A stretch of 64,000 bases of DNA from NCBI GenBank assembly GCA_903915535.1, contig CAIWTJ010000186.1, positions 1 through 64,000 on the forward strand, given 5' to 3'. The position numbers and the translations under genes are program-made. Positions within the stretch are counted from its first letter, which is position 1. Each line of letters starts with the position of its first letter. The notes beneath the pieces were generated by a model that did no database searches, had not been told where the DNA came from, and was given only the letters and a program-made list of their open reading frames with translations. This DNA comes from Enhydrobacter aerosaccus. GTDB taxonomy: Bacteria; Pseudomonadota; Alphaproteobacteria; Reyranellales; Reyranellaceae. Below, piece by piece: positions 3,856 to 38,731 of the stretch.

Positions 3856-6800
3856 CTACGAGTTCACCTGCTGAAGCTCGTGGCGGGCTCGCTGCTGCAA
3901 GAGGGCGGCTCCCTGCCGGGTGGAGATCGCCACCGCTTCCTCCAGATCCGCCACGACCGTTGCAAGCCCGTCGCCCTGGACCATCGCCAGCTTGGCTCGA
4001 AGGCGATGGAATTCCGCTGCGACCCATCGCTCGCCTTTCTTGATCCGAATTTCCGCAATCGGCAGGAGGGCCGCCGCTTCCTCGATCCGGTTACGCGCGT
4101 CGTATGCATCGGCGAACAAGACGATCCAGCTGCTCAGCGCATAAGCGTTCATCGCGACCAACGCATCGATGCCTTTGCGCGCCAGCGCGAAACCGGTCAC
4201 TTCGGAACCGCGATAGATTTCGGACAGCCCCATCATCAGATCGGCGTGCGGTTGCCAGGGCGCCAGATCGTTCCGCTTCACCAAGCGTTGCAAGTCCTCG
4301 GCGTAGGGCCCGAACTCTTCGAATTGGCGCGTGGTCGCCGAAATCCAGCAGCCGCCGAAGGCGAGCGTCGGGCAAAGGCTCGGTACATGGTTGCGTTCCG
4401 CGGCGTGGGCAAACACCGCTTTGCGCCATCTGTCGCGCTCGTCGGGTCGGTCCATCAGGGTGAAACACTCCGCCAGGCCAAGCAATGAAGCACCCGCATG
4501 GCTCGAGGCGCCCGCTCGCGCCAACGGAAGATCGTGGGCGTTCGGATCGTACAGCTTGTTGAAGGCGGTGAACTGATCGACGGCGGCGGCAAGCTCGCCC
4601 CGGAACAGCAGCGTGGTGCCCATGGTGCGATGCGACAGGAGGCGGTCGGTTGGGCTCGCTCCGTTGGCCTTCTCGGCGATCAAAAGAGCCGTACCGTGCA
4701 GCGCTTCAAAGTCGCTGCCGCCCAGCTGAGCAAGCCACTTCAAGGTGAGAGGTGGCACAATCGACTGCTCGGACTTGAGACGCCGGTGGAGGTCGAGCGC
4801 CTGATCGACGGCCGCGGCGACCTCCGGCGAGCCATGACCGCGCGCGGCAATCAAGGGGCCGATGATGCCCAGTCTCAGCCCGAGTTCCCGCTCGTCTCGC
4901 TCCGCCGCCGCAGGCAGGAAGGCCAGGACTTCCAGTCCCTTGTGGTAGTGCGCGACCGCCTCGACGGGCGACGAACGCGCAGCAGCATCGGCTCCCGCGC
5001 GCTCCCAATAGTCGACGGCTTTCGCGTGATTGCCGCCCTCGGTGAAATGTTGGGCGACCAGCTGCGGCATGACTGCCGCCATTTCGGGAAACTGCCCTTC
5101 CAGTGCCAGCGCGACCCTCTCGTGGAGGCGCGCGCGTTCGCGGCGCAACAGAAGTTCATAGGCCGCATCGCGCACCAGCATGTGGTGAAAGCCCGCCGCC
5201 TCGCCGTAGGAGCTGTGCCGGCGGACGAAGATCCCGGCTTCGAGCAGTCGGCGGACGCCCTCGCGCGTCGCTTCCGATTGACTGGAAGAGATCGCGAGCA
5301 CCAGGTTGACTGGAAATTCGCGGCCAATCACCGACGCGAGCTGTGCCGTCTCGCGGCCGTGCGCCAAACCGTCGAGGCGCGCCAGTAGGGATTCGGTCAG
5401 GGTTGAAGGGATGTCCAGCGGCCCTTTCTTGTCCTGTCCGCCGGCGAGCAACCCACGTGTCAGTTCCTGCGCAAAGAGTGGCACGCCATCGGATCGGGCC
5501 ACGATTTGATCGATGGTTCCGGAAGGAAGGCCGGCCGGTCCGGCAAGGGAGAGCACGAGGCGGCGAAGTTCGGCAGGTGGCAACCGGTCGAGACGGAGCA
5601 CGGTGACATGCGGCTGCTCTTCCCAGGGCGCGGAGAAGCCAGGACGTGCCGCGACCACCATGAAGGCAGGCGCAGTACGCACCATGTCGACCACCATGCC
5701 GAGGAATTCGAGGGTCGAGGGATCCGCCCATTGAATGTCCTCGACCGCCAATACCTGGGTTTGCCGGAGTGTGGCCTCTGCGAGATCGAGAAGCGTCCTC
5801 AACAATCTCGACCGCACGTGGTCGGGCCTGGGTGGCTGCGCCGGACGCTCCGGGTCGGCATCGATGCGCAGCAAATCGAGTAAGATCGACAGGCGCTCGG
5901 AGGACAAGACGCCCAGGCGCTTCAGCAACGCTTGGATCTTGTCACGGCGTTGGCTGGCGGAATCCTCCGTGGCGATGCTCGCCGCGAATTCGAGCTGAAG
6001 GATAACCGGGAAGAAGGGCGTTTGCTCTTGGTCAGGAGAGCATTGCAGCACGAACCGGCTGCGCTCCGAAGCACCGGACAGGCGATGCACTTCTTCGACC
6101 AGGCGTGACTTTCCGAAGCCCGGCTCGCCTATCACCATGACAATCTGGCCTGAACCCGTCCTGGCGGTGGCCAGCCGGTCGCCAATGCGGGCAAGCTCGC
6201 TCTCTCGGCCAATCAGGTCGATTGTGCCGCGCGTAGAGCGCAGGGCGTCGTAGCGGCTGACAACAGCGCGTTCGCCGGCAACACGCCATGCCGGCACCAC
6301 ATGAGGCAATCCTTTCAATTCGAAGCGTCCGATGTCGACGCAATCGAAGAGATCGCCAACCAGCGTCCTCGTGCCCTCGGCAATGATCACTTCATTGGCC
6401 CGCGCCAATCCCTGAAGGCGGGCGGCCAGATTAGGCGTTTCGCCGGTAACGTCGACCTTGGCCGCCGCGCCACCCTCGGCCACACTGCCGATGACGACGA
6501 GTCCGGTCGCAATGCCGATGCGCACCTGCGGAGCGGCGCCGGCGATGGGCTTGAGCTGACCGAGTTCCCGCACGATAGACAGGCCGGCGCGCAATGCGCG
6601 TTCAGCGTCCTGTTCATGGGCATTGGGGTAGCCGAAATAAACGAACACGCCGTCGCCGACATAGTGAGCGATGAAGCCGCGGTGGCGTTTGACGGCCTCG
6701 GCGATGCAGTCTCGATACGCCGTCAGAATCTCGTGCATGTCCTCGGGGTCCAGTCGCGTCGCGAGCGCGGTCGAATCGACGAGATCGCAGAACATCACGG

Positions 6801-33117: not shown

Positions 33118-36100
33118 TCAGCGGTCGACACCACGGCTCGGTTGCGGCACGTGGCGGTCAAGCCGATCGAGCTCAAGCTGGAGGTCCATGTCGTGCACGG
33201 TCGTGAGCAATTCGCGTGCAGAAGCCGTTGCCTTGGCCCATCGTTCGATTGCCGGCTGATTGCCCGCTAGAGGGCGGCCCGTTCGTCGGTGATGCGTCGC
33301 GGGCGGCATCGCAAAGATCAAGTCCTTCAGCACCGTGTCGAGCTCGCCGTTGGTCGCGCGACCTTCACTGTAGCGGCCGATGGTGACGAATGCCGCCTGG
33401 GCGCTGCGACCGGCTTCGCTCGTTGCCGAAAGATGTGGCGCTGCGGCGTGCAGCGCCTCGACGATTGCCAGCATGTTGGCTCCCACCGCCACCAGGCCCG
33501 TAGTGCCGAAACTTCCATAGCCGCGCGCGGCGAACGCCCTGTGTTGCGGCGTGTCGGGAAGGGCCGCGACCTGCCGCTCGCGCGCGCGCTGTCGGCGGTC
33601 TTGCGCGCGAGCCTCGGCACGCGCGGCGATCTCGCGGTGATACCGGGCGCCGATCGGAGTCGCTCGGAACCCATCGCTGTTGACGAAACGCTCGGACGCG
33701 GCGTCGTACTCCTGCGGCGTACGCCGCGGGCTCGGCCGCCCGACCTTAGCGGACCGGACAAATGGCGGAGCCACGAAGATCCGCGGCTCGCGGCGCGGCT
33801 GAGCGGTTAACTCGTCCACTGGGGCAGACCCTTGCTCCCGCAAGCGGGCAATCTCGGGGCCCATGTTGCGGGCAAAGTCGGGTCGAGCGGGACAGCGTCG
33901 TGCCAGTACGTCGCACAAGGTGCGGTAAGTCCGCGATCGGTCCCGCGTTCGAACCAGGGTGTCGCTGGCCAATGCCCATTCCGCGCGAGTGAAGACCGCC
34001 GACGGCCGGCCCTCGTAGCGCAGCAGCGCCGGCATGGCGGCCGCCGCCGCGCGCTCATGGGCGATTGCGGCTGCCTCATGGCGCATCAACGCGGCCACGC
34101 GCAGCATGTCGGGCTGCCAGCGCCGGTCATACTCCGCCGTGACCTGGCGCTCGCGGCGCTCGCGGGCCGCCCCCATGCGGGACAGTATCTCTGGAGGGGC
34201 GCCGCCGCGGCGCGCCGCCTCGAGCTGGCGATCGAGATCCGAGAGGGCCGCGTCGTCCGCCAGGACCTGGGCCAGCCCTGGCGGCCGATAGCGGGCCGCC
34301 AGGGCTGCAATGTCGGTTGAGCTCAGGCCAAAGGCTTCCCGGCGGGCTTCATAGTCGGCGGTGGCGAATTGGGACCGCAGCTGCTCGATCTCGGGGCTGC
34401 GGCGGCGCTCGGCTTCGGCCGCTATCCAGGCCCGCTCCGCCGGCGCCAAGCCAGGGCCTTCATAGTCGAGGGTCGTCTCCTTCACTTTGTGCCGGCGCGC
34501 CAGGGCGCGGATCAGGCTGTCTACATCGTTATGGGACGCCGTGTCGGCGATCAGCAGGCAATCCTCGCGATGACGCGACATCGCCACGTACAACAGGTTC
34601 CTGTCCATGCCAGTGCTCTCGAGGGCATAGACCCGGTCGAGCGTGGCGCCCTGGGTCTTGTGGATGGTGAGGGCGTAGCCATGGTCGACGTCGGGATAGT
34701 CCTGGAGCGGCACCCGCACCACGCCGCCCTCATCGATCTGGACGTACAGCGCCGCGCGTTCCGTGCGCACGACGCTGCCGAGCTGGCCATTGCGAACCTC
34801 CAGGAGTCCGCGGCCATCGGCCGAGCGCAGGCGCGCATTGCGTAAAAGAGTGACGCGGTCTCCGGACAGGAACTCGCGGGGCCCTGAACGGGTCTGATAG
34901 AGGCTGCCTTCCTGCGGCGCGAGCAGGCCGATGCGCTTCAGCCCGGCCCGGATGCCGTCATTCAGCGCCGCCACGTCGGCGTTGGTGTGAGCAAGTGCTG
35001 CCTGTTTCCCTGGCCGGGTGTAGCTCTCGAGGAATAGCTCGATGGTGCGCGCGATGGGATTGGCTTCCAGCCGAATCCGGCCCTCGGCCGCATACGCTTG
35101 CAGGGCGTCGGCCGTTCGCGATTGGGCGAACGCTACGGTGGCCGCTCGCTGCCATTCCAGCGATTGCCGGCGAACCTCGAGGAGCCTGGCCGGCTCTATC
35201 CGTTCGATCAGCGCCCGGAACGGCGCGCCCGCGCCGATCGCCGGCAGCTGCTCGGGGTCTCCGACCAGCACGATCTTGGCTCCAGCCAGGCGGACCTCGT
35301 GAACCAGCCGGGCCGTCGTCTTGCTGTCGATCATGCCGGCTTCATCGATGACCAGCACGTCCCGGGACGAGAGGCGGGCGGCGCCCTTGTCCCAGGACAG
35401 GATCAGCGAGGCGATCGTGGTGCTGCGAATGCCCGAGGATTGGCCGAGCCCTTGGGCCGCTTTGCCCGCGGTGGCGGCCCCGAATACCCTAAAACCCTCG
35501 CGCTCCCAGCCCAGCCGTGCCGCTTTGAGAAGGGTGCTCTTGCCGGCACCGGCCACTCCGACGATCGCCGACAACGATTCCGCCCCCGTCACATGCTCCA
35601 GGGCACTGCGTTGCGACGGGCTGAGCTCTATGCCGTCGCGCTCGGCCAGGGTTGCCACCGCGATCGCCAGCGTCTCGGCCGTAAGGCCGCGGGTCGTCTT
35701 CGGTCCGAGCGTGCGCGTACATGCCAACGCGAGCGCATCGGCCAGCAGCTTCCATTCGAGATCGGCGGTGGACTTGAGCGTGTATTTCGCCGGCAGGTCG
35801 ACGGAGCCGCCTTCCGGCAGCGTGAGCGTTTGGCGTTCCCGGCGGGACGGCAAGGCCAGAAGCTCGGGGCACGCCATGACGGCGGCCACGCAGATCTGGA
35901 ACTGCTCATGGTCCGAGACGTACCGGTCGAGGGTCTGGGCGATCTCCTGGCGGGTGAACACTGACTGGCTGTCCGCGAGGAGACGCAGCAACTGGCCGGG
36001 GTCGGCGCGGATAATTTCGGCATTGCGCGCCTGGGTCTCGGGACTGATCGACAGCATGTCGGGGACGATAAAGCGCCGCTGCAGCCCGTTCCCGGCCGGG

Positions 36101-36777
36101 CCTTTCTTCGGTTGCGGGACGATATCGATGCCGCGATCGCGGTAACTGCGCGGGTCGAGGCGCGCTTGCTGGCCGGCCCGCTCGAGCGCTCGGTTGGCCA
36201 GTTGTGCCCACTCCTCGCGGAGATTGCGGATTTCGGCAGCCCTCCGGAGCAGCCCCAGCGCTTTGCGCTTGTCCTCGTTGTGCTCGAGTGCACTTCGCTC
36301 GCCCAGCCCTTGGGCGCTAATGCGACGCGTCGTCATCAGCAAATGGGCATGGTGGTTGCGCTGGTCGCCCGCCTTGCTGGGAGGGTGGATCGCGTAATCC
36401 ACGGCAACGCCATAGCGGTCGGCCAGCATTTTCGCGTATTGGGTCGTGAGCGCCCGGCGCTGGGCGCGGTCCAGTTCGGCGGGGAGGGCCAACAGGATCT
36501 CCGTTGCGACCCGCGAATCCCGGCGATGCTCGGCCCGCTCGGCGGCGTTCCAGAGCGCACTGCGGTCGAGAGCCCACGTCGCCGTAACACCTGCTGGCAC
36601 CAGAATGCCGGTTTCGGCCGGATCGATCTCCCCCAAACGGACGCGCCGGGAGTAGTCATGGCGCTTGCCTGTGATCTCGTTGCTCAGGGCCGTGCCGCTG
36701 CGGTAGGCGGCGGCGGCGATCGCCGATCGGCCTTTGCCGCGGCTGATCGCCTGCAATGCGAAGTGACAGACGGCCAT
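33118..36777 (-). CDS. traA: TraA-type conjugative relaxase/helicase
   Basis: A 1219-residue MobA/TraA relaxase. The N-terminal HUH nuclease has Tyr25 (AIAAAAYRSGTALS) as the likely nucleophile and the metal site NHHAHLLM (141-148) preceded by His131. A RecD/UvrD-type helicase follows, with Walker A GVAGAGKSTLL (about 405), Walker B VLVIDEAGMID and motif VI-region ALTIHKTQGATLDRVY. It nicks oriT and unwinds the strand for transfer. ATG 36777 was chosen at 2 bases after the HTH gene stop; the longer frame is that gene in another phase. The C-terminus is long and helical as in TraA of Ti plasmids. The protein seems intact. Confidence 0.93.
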   Translation of the reverse strand: MAVCHFALQAISRGKGRSAIAAAAYRSGTALSNEITGKRHDYSRRVRLGEIDPAETGILVPAGVTATWALDRSALWNAAERAEHRRDSRVATEILLALPAELDRAQRRALTTQYAKMLADRYGVAVDYAIHPPSKAGDQRNHHAHLLMTTRRISAQGLGERSALEHNEDKRKALGLLRRAAEIRNLREEWAQLANRALERAGQQARLDPRSYRDRGIDIVPQPKKGPAGNGLQRRFIVPDMLSISPETQARNAEIIRADPGQLLRLLADSQSVFTRQEIAQTLDRYVSDHEQFQICVAAVMACPELLALPSRRERQTLTLPEGGSVDLPAKYTLKSTADLEWKLLADALALACTRTLGPKTTRGLTAETLAIAVATLAERDGIELSPSQRSALEHVTGAESLSAIVGVAGAGKSTLLKAARLGWEREGFRVFGAATAGKAAQGLGQSSGIRSTTIASLILSWDKGAARLSSRDVLVIDEAGMIDSKTTARLVHEVRLAGAKIVLVGDPEQLPAIGAGAPFRALIERIEPARLLEVRRQSLEWQRAATVAFAQSRTADALQAYAAEGRIRLEANPIARTIELFLESYTRPGKQAALAHTNADVAALNDGIRAGLKRIGLLAPQEGSLYQTRSGPREFLSGDRVTLLRNARLRSADGRGLLEVRNGQLGSVVRTERAALYVQIDEGGVVRVPLQDYPDVDHGYALTIHKTQGATLDRVYALESTGMDRNLLYVAMSRHREDCLLIADTASHNDVDSLIRALARRHKVKETTLDYEGPGLAPAERAWIAAEAERRRSPEIEQLRSQFATADYEARREAFGLSSTDIAALAARYRPPGLAQVLADDAALSDLDRQLEAARRGGAPPEILSRMGAARERRERQVTAEYDRRWQPDMLRVAALMRHEAAAIAHERAAAAAMPALLRYEGRPSAVFTRAEWALASDTLVRTRDRSRTYRTLCDVLARRCPARPDFARNMGPEIARLREQGSAPVDELTAQPRREPRIFVAPPFVRSAKVGRPSPRRTPQEYDAASERFVNSDGFRATPIGARYHREIAARAEARAQDRRQRARERQVAALPDTPQHRAFAARGYGSFGTTGLVAVGANMLAIVEALHAAAPHLSATSEAGRSAQAAFVTIGRYSEGRATNGELDTVLKDLIFAMPPATHHRRTGRPLAGNQPAIERWAKATASARELLTTVHDMDLQLELDRLDRHVPQPSRGVDR

Positions 36778-36779
36778 AG

Positions 36780-37058
36780 TCAGCGACCCCCTTCTCCGCC
36801 CAGGCGGGCGATATCGGCGAACGGTTGCTTCTGGGGGCGACGCTTCTCGTCGGCATCGGTGCGGTGAGGACGGCCGCGTTCGTAAGCCCCGGTCGACGCG
36901 GGCGTCCACAGCCGCGTGCGGCCCCTCGTGCCGCCACTGATGGAGGCGCTGGGCGCGGGGAAGAAGACATCGCGATTGACCAGCCGGCCAATCCCCTCGC
37001 GGGTGAAGATCCAGCGACGACTCAGGTTGGCAATGCTCAGCAACTCCGATGGCGACAT
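36780..37058 (-). CDS. Small HTH accessory protein of the relaxase
   Basis: A 92-residue protein starting MSPSELLSIANLSRRWIF. The segment SRRWIFTREGIGRLVNRDVFF and the following GRTRLWTPASTGAYERGRPH look like a winged-helix AlpA/excisionase-type DNA-binding domain; similar small proteins precede TraA-like genes in alphaproteobacteria. It ends 2 bases before the relaxase start, so one transcript is likely. It may help relaxosome assembly at oriT or control relaxase expression; no direct evidence. The C-terminus is basic and polar. Confidence 0.65.
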   Translation of the reverse strand: MSPSELLSIANLSRRWIFTREGIGRLVNRDVFFPAPSASISGGTRGRTRLWTPASTGAYERGRPHRTDADEKRRPQKQPFADIARLGGEGGR

Positions 37059-37770
37059 CAACCTTACGCGGGCGTTGCCACTTGGCAACGCGGTACCGCG
37101 CCCTTCGGGAATTCCTGAGCCCTGTTCCCTCCCTGGCGACGAATGGTCAAACTGGTGTTCAGATAAGGCGTAGCAGCGCGCACGATCGGCGAGAAATAGG
37201 ATGAACGGACTACGCTCTTCTATGGAAGCAGACCTCTCGCCCATTGAGGGAAACGCTGGCAAGAGCGACACCGACTTTAAGGAAACCGAGTGGCCCGCAA
37301 ACCACCATCACGCGCTCGCAGATCTACGCTGTTCGTTCGCAGCCCTGGCGGAAGTTGGGAAGAAACCCCAGCCCGTAGCTCAACGAGCTCGAGGAAAGCA
37401 GACGGCGAGCGGGTCCAATTGGGGGCGACCGCCGTTGTGGTGACTCTGATTCTCTTGCACCAACCGCCGGCCGCCAACGGGCATTTGGTCATCGATGGTA
37501 TGAAAGGAGAGTGAATGTTGCCAGCTCACCACCGGCACAAACGGCACTGACGACGAGGACCTTCGAGATATTCAGCGGCGGGAAAGCTGGCCAAAATCTC
37601 TCAAACCGGCGGTCGAGCTCCAGAGACTATCGTTATTTGCCGGCGAGATGAGCTGACACACAGCCGCCCTATGCGCGTGGTTCTGGTCCCCCGTTGTCGG
37701 CAGGGAGTGGGGTATTCTATGGCTCCTGCCGTTGCGGAGACCCCACCACAGGACGAGCACGGAGCAAGAG
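37059..37770. other. Gene-poor region upstream of the relaxase operon
   Basis: About 710 bases without a supported gene. Short open frames (around 37201 and 37290, plus strand) have no convincing Shine-Dalgarno or family. The oriT could be here because relaxases are usually encoded next to their nic site, but I found no recognisable nic motif. Confidence 0.35.
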
Positions 37771-37830
37771 ACAAACTGTTGCACCGGATGGTGTGACAGG
37801 TTTGTTTCTTGCAGGCGGCCGAAGGCCGCC
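37771..37830 (+). other. Two consecutive hairpins upstream of the group I intron
   Basis: The first hairpin (37771-37806) pairs ACAAACTGTTGCACC with GGTGTGACAGGTTTGT, with one bulge and G-U pairs, and is followed by TTTCTT, like a terminator. The second (37814-37830) pairs GGCGGCC with GGCCGCC around GAA. Role unknown; they precede the tRNA-Leu-like sequence by about 50 bases. Confidence 0.45.
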
Positions 37831-37878
37831 GGTCCGCGCGCAGGCCTGTGGCGTCATGGGTCGAAGCAGGCAGGAGCT

Positions 37879-38156
37879 ATAGACGCAGCAGACTTCAATT
37901 GGAGTGCCCACGAGGAAACCCGTGGAGCAGAACCGCTCAAAGTCGGGGAAAGCTAAGGGTTCGACCTAAGCCAATCCCGAGCCAAGCCCCTTCGGGGAAG
38001 GTGTAGAGACTAGACGGGTGGCGCCTACGGTCAGAAGGCCTTGGCGAAGGGATAGTCCAGACCACGAACGCCAATCAGGCGGCGGCGAAAGCCGAAGTGG
38101 TACGAATATCTGCTTCTCGAAAGGGAATGCGGGTTCGAGTCCCGCCGTCCGCACCA
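37879..38156 (+). pseudogene. tRNA-Leu(UAA)-like gene interrupted by a group I intron; 5' half degenerate
   Basis: The 3' exon (38105-38156) is a clear tRNA 3' half: anticodon-stem TCTGC, a leucine-type long variable arm, T-arm GCGGGTTCGAGTCCCGC, acceptor CGTCCGC and encoded ACCA. The 5' exon keeps TAGACGCAGCAGACTT (D-arm end and anticodon stem GCAGA). Splicing after CTT and before AAT gives anticodon TAA. The acceptor 5' strand GCGGACG and a normal D-arm cannot be found; the nearest candidate pairs at only about five of seven positions. Position 37 would be U, which is unusual. I therefore call it a probable pseudo-tRNA rather than a working one. Confidence 0.7.
37896..38104 (+). ncRNA. Group I intron (tRNA-Leu type, IC3-like), 209 nt
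   Basis: A self-splicing intron recognised by its core. The P4-P6/P7 segment GGTGTAGAGACTAGACGG (near 38000-38017), GAGCCAAGCC (near 37979-37988) and the P7/J8 segment GGGATAGTCCAGA (near 38049-38061) match the known Azoarcus tRNA-Ile and cyanobacterial tRNA-Leu introns. The 5' splice site follows T37895. The internal guide GAGT at 37902-37905 pairs with exon ACTT, including the required G-U at the cut. The terminal G is 38104. No homing endonuclease is encoded. Core homology is from memory of those introns; splicing itself is inferred. Confidence 0.88.
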
Positions 38157-38340
38157 TTCTAATCTCGGCATCTGGATGAGCAGCTGCCGAAGCAAGTTCA
38201 AATCGGGGGCCCGCAGCCACTTCGAATTGCGCGGTTTCTCAACACAACTTTCTTGGCTAGAACAGGTAGCAACGCCATCCTGATCCCCGCCTACGGTTGT
38301 TGTAGTCGTGGCGACAGGTGATCTGTCCAAAGGAGTGCTT

Positions 38341-38568
38341 ATGAGTGGCGTGTTCATTGCCCACAAGGTCACACGCTTTTTCAACGTCATCTCGGAGCGC
38401 GATCCGGAAGCGAATGCGCGAGTTTATCGCATAACCGACTGTATTAATTGCGAGCTCAGCGAGTGTGGATTTTCGCGTACCCGCAGTGGTACCCGCGTTA
38501 ATATTTCGTGCCGCGGTTTGGTTCCGTCCCCTGACGAGACAGCAGCCGTATCGCAGTCCGCGAATTAA
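38341..38568 (+). CDS. Hypothetical small protein
   Basis: A 75-residue protein MSGVFIAHKVTRFFNVISER… with a good AAAGGAG before ATG 38341. Five cysteines occur in the C-terminal half (DCINCELSECGFSRTRS, then a further one), but without a zinc-finger pattern I can name. It lies about 185 bases after the tRNA-Leu-like gene. AT-rich for this window. Function unknown. Confidence 0.5.
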   Translation: MSGVFIAHKVTRFFNVISERDPEANARVYRITDCINCELSECGFSRTRSGTRVNISCRGLVPSPDETAAVSQSAN

Positions 38569-38731
38569 TCCACAAGCCCAACCACAATGTGGACCCGACC
38601 TGGGGCACTATCGCCGCTAGCGCGCCAATGGCCAATTGAGATTCCGTGGCCGCGATGAACTGAAAGCGTGCCGGGTTTGGAAGTCGGCGGCGCGATCTTT
38701 GGCTACGGCAACAGCAAGCGGTTGGGGGGCG

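Follow-up and report, generated by a model that had tools for sequence, protein, structure and literature searches.

A damaged, probable replacement tRNA-Leu(UAA) gene interrupted by a predicted self-splicing intron

Why should a tRNA gene that lacks its 5' end still carry what looks like a nearly intact group I ribozyme, on DNA that appears to be mobile? The question is raised by positions 37,880–38,156 of a 64,000-nt stretch of Enhydrobacter aerosaccus DNA (contig CAIWTJ010000186.1 of assembly GCA_903915535.1, positions 1 to 64,000 of the forward strand; this whole stretch is called the window here). The original prediction read the locus as a group I intron in a tRNA-Leu(UAA)-like gene whose 5' exon had lost its acceptor strand. 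It offered two alternatives, a dying tRNA with a still intact ribozyme or an old attachment site made of a 3' tRNA piece plus intron, and held that such introns are rare in Proteobacteria. The observation itself holds. The interpretation is partly supported: decay of a tRNA gene fits, whereas neither the attachment site nor the rarity is supported. In our view, the locus is the 5'-truncated relic of a replacement tRNA, of a kind that mobile islands carry to substitute for the host tRNA they break on insertion.

Anatomy of the remnant

The elements of the locus, in window coordinates, are as follows.

37880–37895 (+): TAGACGCAGCAGACTT, the remaining 3' part of the 5' exon of tRNA-Leu(UAA), comprising the 3' side of the D arm, the 5' strand of the anticodon stem and C32-U33-U34; identical in the 12 type A copies aligned (the type to which the window copy belongs)
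37896–38104 (+): group I intron, 209 nt, between U34 and A35; P1 with the U.G splice pair at 37895/37902, terminal G at 38104
38105–38156 (+): complete 3' exon, with the anticodon loop (A37 changed to T), variable arm, T arm, acceptor 3' strand CGTCCGC, A, and CCA
38157–38268 (+): sequence 3' of the replacement tRNA shared with other members of the genus, the first 59 nt with genome G014, nt 9–54 with G008 and nt 40–112 with G033 (G numbers denote genomes, C numbers their contigs, and L numbers stretches of DNA that were fetched)
37879..37880 (no strand): breakpoint at which homology to close relatives ends; the first 19 nt of the gene and the island end upstream are missing
37716–37883 (no strand): 168-bp stretch with further hairpins inside, bounded by a 15-bp inverted repeat (14 of 15) that ends 4 bp inside the tRNA remnant; possible agent of the break, unproven
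33118–36909 (–): MobA/MobL relaxase with helicase domain (TraA-like), evidence that the region is mobile

The intron is supported by both profile and covariation. The Rfam model Intron_gpI matches 37886–38068 at 39.7 bits (E 1.5e-8), which is below the curated gathering score of 50, so that the match is not listed at the default threshold. Four intact relatives, however, score only 37.7–45.4 bits. In an alignment of 28 such genes, the window included, the predicted fold holds the tRNA and intron helices; 36 of 82 predicted pairs show at least one both-sided change that keeps the pair, and the splice-site U.G pair is present in 28 of 28. The UAA anticodon is our reading from the splice-site rules. 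ARAGORN shifts the boundary by one base and names intact type A copies tRNA-Phe(gaa).

The loss of the 5' strand is equally real, and the seven-pair acceptor stem of a functional tRNA is absent. The best 5' acceptor strand found upstream, after scanning offsets, pairs at 5 of 7 positions, whereas the other rows with a value give 7 of 7, except L084 (6) and L167 (5). ARAGORN with introns reports no gene in 37400–38600 but does report two intact copies given as controls; without introns it misses intact copies too. Homology to close relatives starts at 37880. A search of the genome for the lost 5' half, allowing up to 3 mismatches, gave 0 matches. The 168-bp stretch is not a multicopy element, as it has one copy in the genome, and the upstream 880 bp matched no other fetched locus.

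The genome of the window has 41 tRNA matches, including an intact, intronless tRNA-Leu(TAA) of quite different sequence on contig C96, directly behind a relative (69%) of the DUF2063 gene (bufC) of G014. About 0.9 kb behind this intact gene, at C96:28886-28911, lies a remnant of a native tRNA-Leu 3' half, perhaps a trace of an earlier insertion. Thus, the window copy is redundant and broken, and cannot be a tRNA. It differs at A37, a position invariant in the 11 other copies aligned, but it shows no excess of changes overall: 6 are unique and 1 falls at an invariant column, against 1–7 and 0–2 in four complete Reyranella copies.

Complete copies at the ends of islands

Relatives of the gene are widespread. 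In a search of 101 genomes, which left out G101–G104, 28 matched at E 0.001, among them four species of the same genus (Reyranella, by inference) with complete type A genes 91–97% identical (G024, 97%; G014; G003; G016); a further complete copy, 95% identical, was seen in G103. Another relic, a tRNA 3' end plus the flank found behind the window copy, lies in G008 (L025:1447-1530). Nor are such introns rare in Proteobacteria, as one exact core pattern hit at least 119 stretches, many of them alphaproteobacterial by record title. A blastn search with 37780–38160 finds 1272 of 72,556 plasmid records, 1260 at 80–90% identity; in the rows examined the match begins at 37880 or, in two, at 37877.

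The complete copies have a telling arrangement. In G014, bufC is followed by the native tRNA cut after its anticodon loop, 206 bp of other sequence, and the complete intron gene; behind the latter is a partial tRNA match, a fragment of another isotype (L199:7970-8025). We then traced the native tRNA, and not the intron, through 65 genomes of the genus. In 36 it is listed full length, and in several it is split at nt 30–45. (This count leaves out the weakest matches; G011 has a 71% full-length match not counted among the 36.) Of nine listed 5' halves, five are followed at 40–206 bp by the type A gene (G014, G003, G103, G024, and G019, where it is cut by the contig end), one, in G102, by a truncated type A and a complete type B gene, and three, in G022, G045 and G056, by no intron gene in the fetched stretch. 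Of these last, G045 also has a full-length native gene, the source of tRNA-Leu(UAA) in G022 is unexplained, and in G056 (C56:52227-98188, L243/L244) the native tRNA is split by a 46-kb prophage-like insert with a single-subunit RNA polymerase gene and an integrase, no replacement tRNA being seen in the two ends fetched. In G102 the native halves lie 101 kb apart on one contig, with an integrase beside the 3' half; further broken intron-tRNA pieces, a type A cut inside the intron and a 3' piece of type B, lie on or near one island there (L242:12121-12287 and L241:12858-12940). In G014 a relative of this integrase, with two stops in the matched stretch, sits beside a native 3' half on another contig.

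The arrangement is not confined to this genus. Enterovirga aerilata has the native 5' half, a 108-bp stretch, an arm-like repeat and the complete intron gene and, about 58 kb away on the same contig, an integrase 65% identical to that of G102 beside the native 3' half. Mesorhizobium sp. BR1-1-16 has the same left end, although no integrase of this kind was found there at E 1e-40, and L107 has a half gene and intron gene too. Where the repeat TAGGTGCAnnATRGGTGCA is present, it lies 107–109 bp from the core and 28–50 bp before the replacement tRNA, in 8 of 8 loci measured; it was not found in the Reyranella UAA islands. The same end, 85% identical, lies in resistance plasmids. In the four plasmids read (L002, at 5815-6280, and L003–L005), the DNA beside the aac(3)-II region holds this left end, which may hint at where the region came from; the arm-like repeat is present and the intron tRNA is complete in all four, and the core is shown in L002. 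In L002, L004 and L005 the gene lies next to an AAA-family ATPase gene (tmrB) and aac(3)-II, whereas in L003 an IS26 lies between it and aac(3)-II. pCTX-M3 has core, 108 bp, repeat, 30 bp and gene in the same order but no tRNA half before the core, which looks like an island end at a non-tRNA site. A search for uninterrupted homologues of the plasmid reading frame upstream of the core gave one weak match, in another plasmid.

Related integrases and left ends target tRNA-Leu(CAA). Of ten integrase loci compared (four more distant ones were left out), six, all from Reyranella, lie beside the 3' half of tRNA-Leu(CAA) (G033, G012, G025, G058, G040 and G011), three beside that of tRNA-Leu(UAA) (G102, G014 and Enterovirga), and one (G027) was not resolved. 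Left ends in G025, G033, G058 and G040 show the CAA 5' half, the repeat and a complete replacement tRNA-Leu(CAA), which is intronless with the loop TTCAAAA instead of CTCAAAA in three and has a group I intron after U33 in G040 (Rfam 45.4 bits). G345, from another family, repeats the intronless replacement type. G012 and G011, however, have a full-length tRNA-Leu(CAA), so there the target seems restored or untouched, and the family may also restore its target. A further CAA 5' half, in G103 (L298), runs to the contig end without a replacement seen. From attL and attR, the shared overlap is CTTAAAA or CTCAAAA, the 7-nt anticodon loop. A search for the attL repeat that made no use of the intron found it in 2 of 385 alphaproteobacterial genomes, once in a CAA island with a replacement gene (L346) and once in a stretch beside a tRNA 3' end with TTTTAATC (L345); 7 viral contigs with the pattern gave no tRNA in ARAGORN.

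The distribution of the gene bears on whether it is used. G016 is one contig, 100% complete; its 44 tRNA matches were all fetched and include the Leu anticodons CAA, UAG, GAG and CAG but no intronless UAA, so the intron gene is the only tRNA-Leu(UAA) found, which indirectly supports dependence on the carried tRNA. Across the genus, nine of nine genomes with a complete intron gene (G003, G012, G014, G016, G024, G025, G049, G102 and G103, the last two seen outside the intron search, which did not cover G101 and G104) lack a listed full-length native gene (hypergeometric 3e-4 against 36 of 65, not corrected for shared ancestry).

Relic, native gene, attachment site or artefact

These observations suggest how the intact system would work. 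In this view, a tyrosine integrase recombines attP with the anticodon loop of the native tRNA-Leu(UAA), the overlap being the 7-nt loop (nt 32–38, CTTAAAA). The island does not restore the target from a 3' fragment, and the native gene is split. A complete tRNA-Leu(UAA), 40–206 bp inside the island end and, in one sub-family, behind an arm-like repeat, takes over. This gene is interrupted by a group I intron after U34, inside the overlap sequence; self-splicing of the RNA would be expected to give a normal anticodon loop, while the DNA no longer offers the overlap. In the window the first 19 nt and the island end have been lost, and the host kept or regained an intact native gene. What the sequences demonstrate is the anatomy of the remnant, its loss of 19 nt and its redundancy and, in the relatives, split native genes that are not restored, a short overlap, complete replacement genes in island ends, adjacent integrases and, in one complete genome, a sole tRNA-Leu(UAA). 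Integration, self-splicing, function of the replacement tRNA, dependence of integrants upon it, protection by the intron and the history of the window copy are inferred from sequence alone.

We consider this explanation likely, although several observations limit it. The window has no arm-like repeat and no GACTTAA(A/G) core, and its genome has no arm-like repeat and no P0002-like integrase at E<=1e-60, so the origin of this copy from an island rests on similarity alone. G016, G012, G049 and G025 carry the intron gene without a recognised native 5' half, so there it could be an ordinary chromosomal gene. Most intron genes elsewhere likewise show no half gene within about 600 bp upstream: in the named collection, 4 of 71 of all types had one and, of the 16 type A genes among them, L113 and L142 did.

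Of the alternatives, the most serious is that the intron-bearing tRNA-Leu(UAA) is an ordinary chromosomal gene, inherited vertically or swapped horizontally, and that the window copy is its local decay, without any island function. Intron-bearing tRNA-Leu genes are indeed common in the genome collection, and those of G016, G012 and G049 lie near bufC with no half gene recognised. This view nevertheless seems unlikely because the order native 5' half, island end, intron gene recurs, with an integrase and the native 3' half at the other end in G102 and Enterovirga, with the left end alone in other Reyranella and in Mesorhizobium, and with the same end in plasmids. A misjoin at 37880 is not excluded, as the assembly is fragmented (306 contigs) and the junction is unique in the genome. 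Against such an artefact, no second copy or 5' half was found elsewhere in the genome, and the change at A37 is as expected of a pseudogene, although complete copies also have changes at invariant columns; we regard it as improbable.

The two readings of the original prediction fare differently. A dying tRNA with a still largely intact ribozyme fits the locus: the gene lacks 19 nt, the rest is 97% identical to the copy in G024, the Rfam score lies within that of intact copies, and the host has an intact intronless tRNA-Leu(UAA). An old attachment site is very unlikely. Islands usually carry a fragment of their target tRNA (PMC4383910), but homology here begins in the D loop, not at one of the crossover subsites named in that work. 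Moreover, in the relatives mapped from both ends the crossover is the 7-nt anticodon loop of the native tRNA, which the intron splits, and the intron gene is a separate, complete replacement gene inside the island end.

The intron as a possible shield, and related systems

It is less certain why the replacement gene should be split. One possibility, which we put forward tentatively, is that integrative elements use the group I intron as a shield. The carried tRNA must read the same codon as the target it destroys, so its anticodon loop would again be the att overlap; the ribozyme would split that loop in DNA and restore it in RNA. Consistent with this idea, the intron lies inside the 7-nt overlap both in UAA islands (after U34) and in one CAA island, G040 (after U33), and four of four intronless CAA replacements seen behind a split native gene (G025, G033, G058 and G345) carry U32 instead of C32 in the overlap. 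On the other hand, the only CAA gene found in G003 (L283, C14:109764) is an intronless tRNA-Leu(CAA) of the replacement type with C32, preceded by a short stretch resembling the CAA island end, though with no half gene. The intron site is also old and general, so elements may simply have picked up common intron-bearing genes.

Phages bear on the same idea from both sides. Gordonia phage Daredevil is described as integrating at tRNA-Lys-TTT without restoring it, as having no tRNA of its own and as making clear plaques (PMC10865867). The window intron matches this phage (81.7% over 108 nt, E 4e-20), and ARAGORN with introns, but not without, finds a tRNA-Lys(ttt) whose anticodon arm is split by a 238-nt intron (L354:4840-5151; NC_048021.1 41820-42131, minus strand), between the integrase and gene 53. 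Rfam did not report this intron at E 0.01, so it rests on blastn and ARAGORN. About 150 bp before the gene lies GGACTTTTAATCCGC, a likely attP core with the uninterrupted arm. The clear plaques speak against a working tRNA or have another cause. Against a general shield, of six phages with related integrases fetched, three had a tRNA in the stretch, all intronless with the loop of the attP candidate: Phrank and Mollymur within 200 bp, and Cheetobro 2.5 kb away. In a different phage context, ARAGORN with introns gives a tRNA-Leu(UAA) with an intron of 700 nt, the limit of the search, in the 595-kb genome of an uncultured phage (LR756511.1; L355:868-1654).

The broken copy is itself of modest interest, but the system to which it points is of high interest. 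That system extends breakage of the host tRNA by an element that brings its own from actinobacteriophages to integrated islands of Alphaproteobacteria, and an island end of this kind is found in resistance plasmids. It gives a possible use for group I introns in bacterial tRNA genes, and makes the old idea that tRNA introns guard against integration testable with natural matched genes. Further, tRNA finders run without an intron option miss such genes, so that replacement tRNAs of phages or islands can be overlooked. An intron as the shield of a replacement tRNA is, in bacteria, apparently new, and unproven; in the open-access literature searched, subscription papers excluded, we saw no paper joining group I introns to replacement tRNAs of bacterial elements.

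Parts of this arrangement are found in other systems. tRNA-targeted islands of the Islander type (PMC4383910) likewise use a tyrosine integrase and an anticodon-loop crossover (site A), but in the islands described here there is no restoring 3' fragment, and a whole replacement gene is present instead. Group I introns in the T-loop of tmRNA (PMC11915505) are ribozyme introns in a tRNA-like gene that islands also use, although we saw no replacement role described for them. The group I intron in tRNA-Leu(UAA) of cyanobacteria and plastids (PMC4476775) is of the same class and in the same tRNA. In cyanobacteria the insertion lies between U34 and A35, the place we read here from the sequence; in the islands, however, the gene is an accessory replacement, and the window copy lacks the 5' acceptor strand. 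The tRNA-dependent lysogeny of actinobacteriophages (Guerrero-Bustamante and Hatfull 2024, PMC10865867) matches the inferred working of the islands, in that those phages integrate into a tRNA gene with a core of about 10 bp, break it, and bring their own tRNA. The islands are not those phages: they are integrated islands of Alphaproteobacteria, with a plasmid-borne end, that involve the leucine isoacceptors UAA and CAA, and their replacement is often split by a group I intron or altered at nt 32 in the overlap. Finally, archaeal tRNA introns have been proposed as protection against integration (Randau and Soll, as cited in PMC3293823, and the model of that paper). The idea that an intron in a tRNA gene spoils an attachment site and can benefit the resident element is the same, but here the introns are group I introns, in bacteria, carried in the element's own replacement gene.
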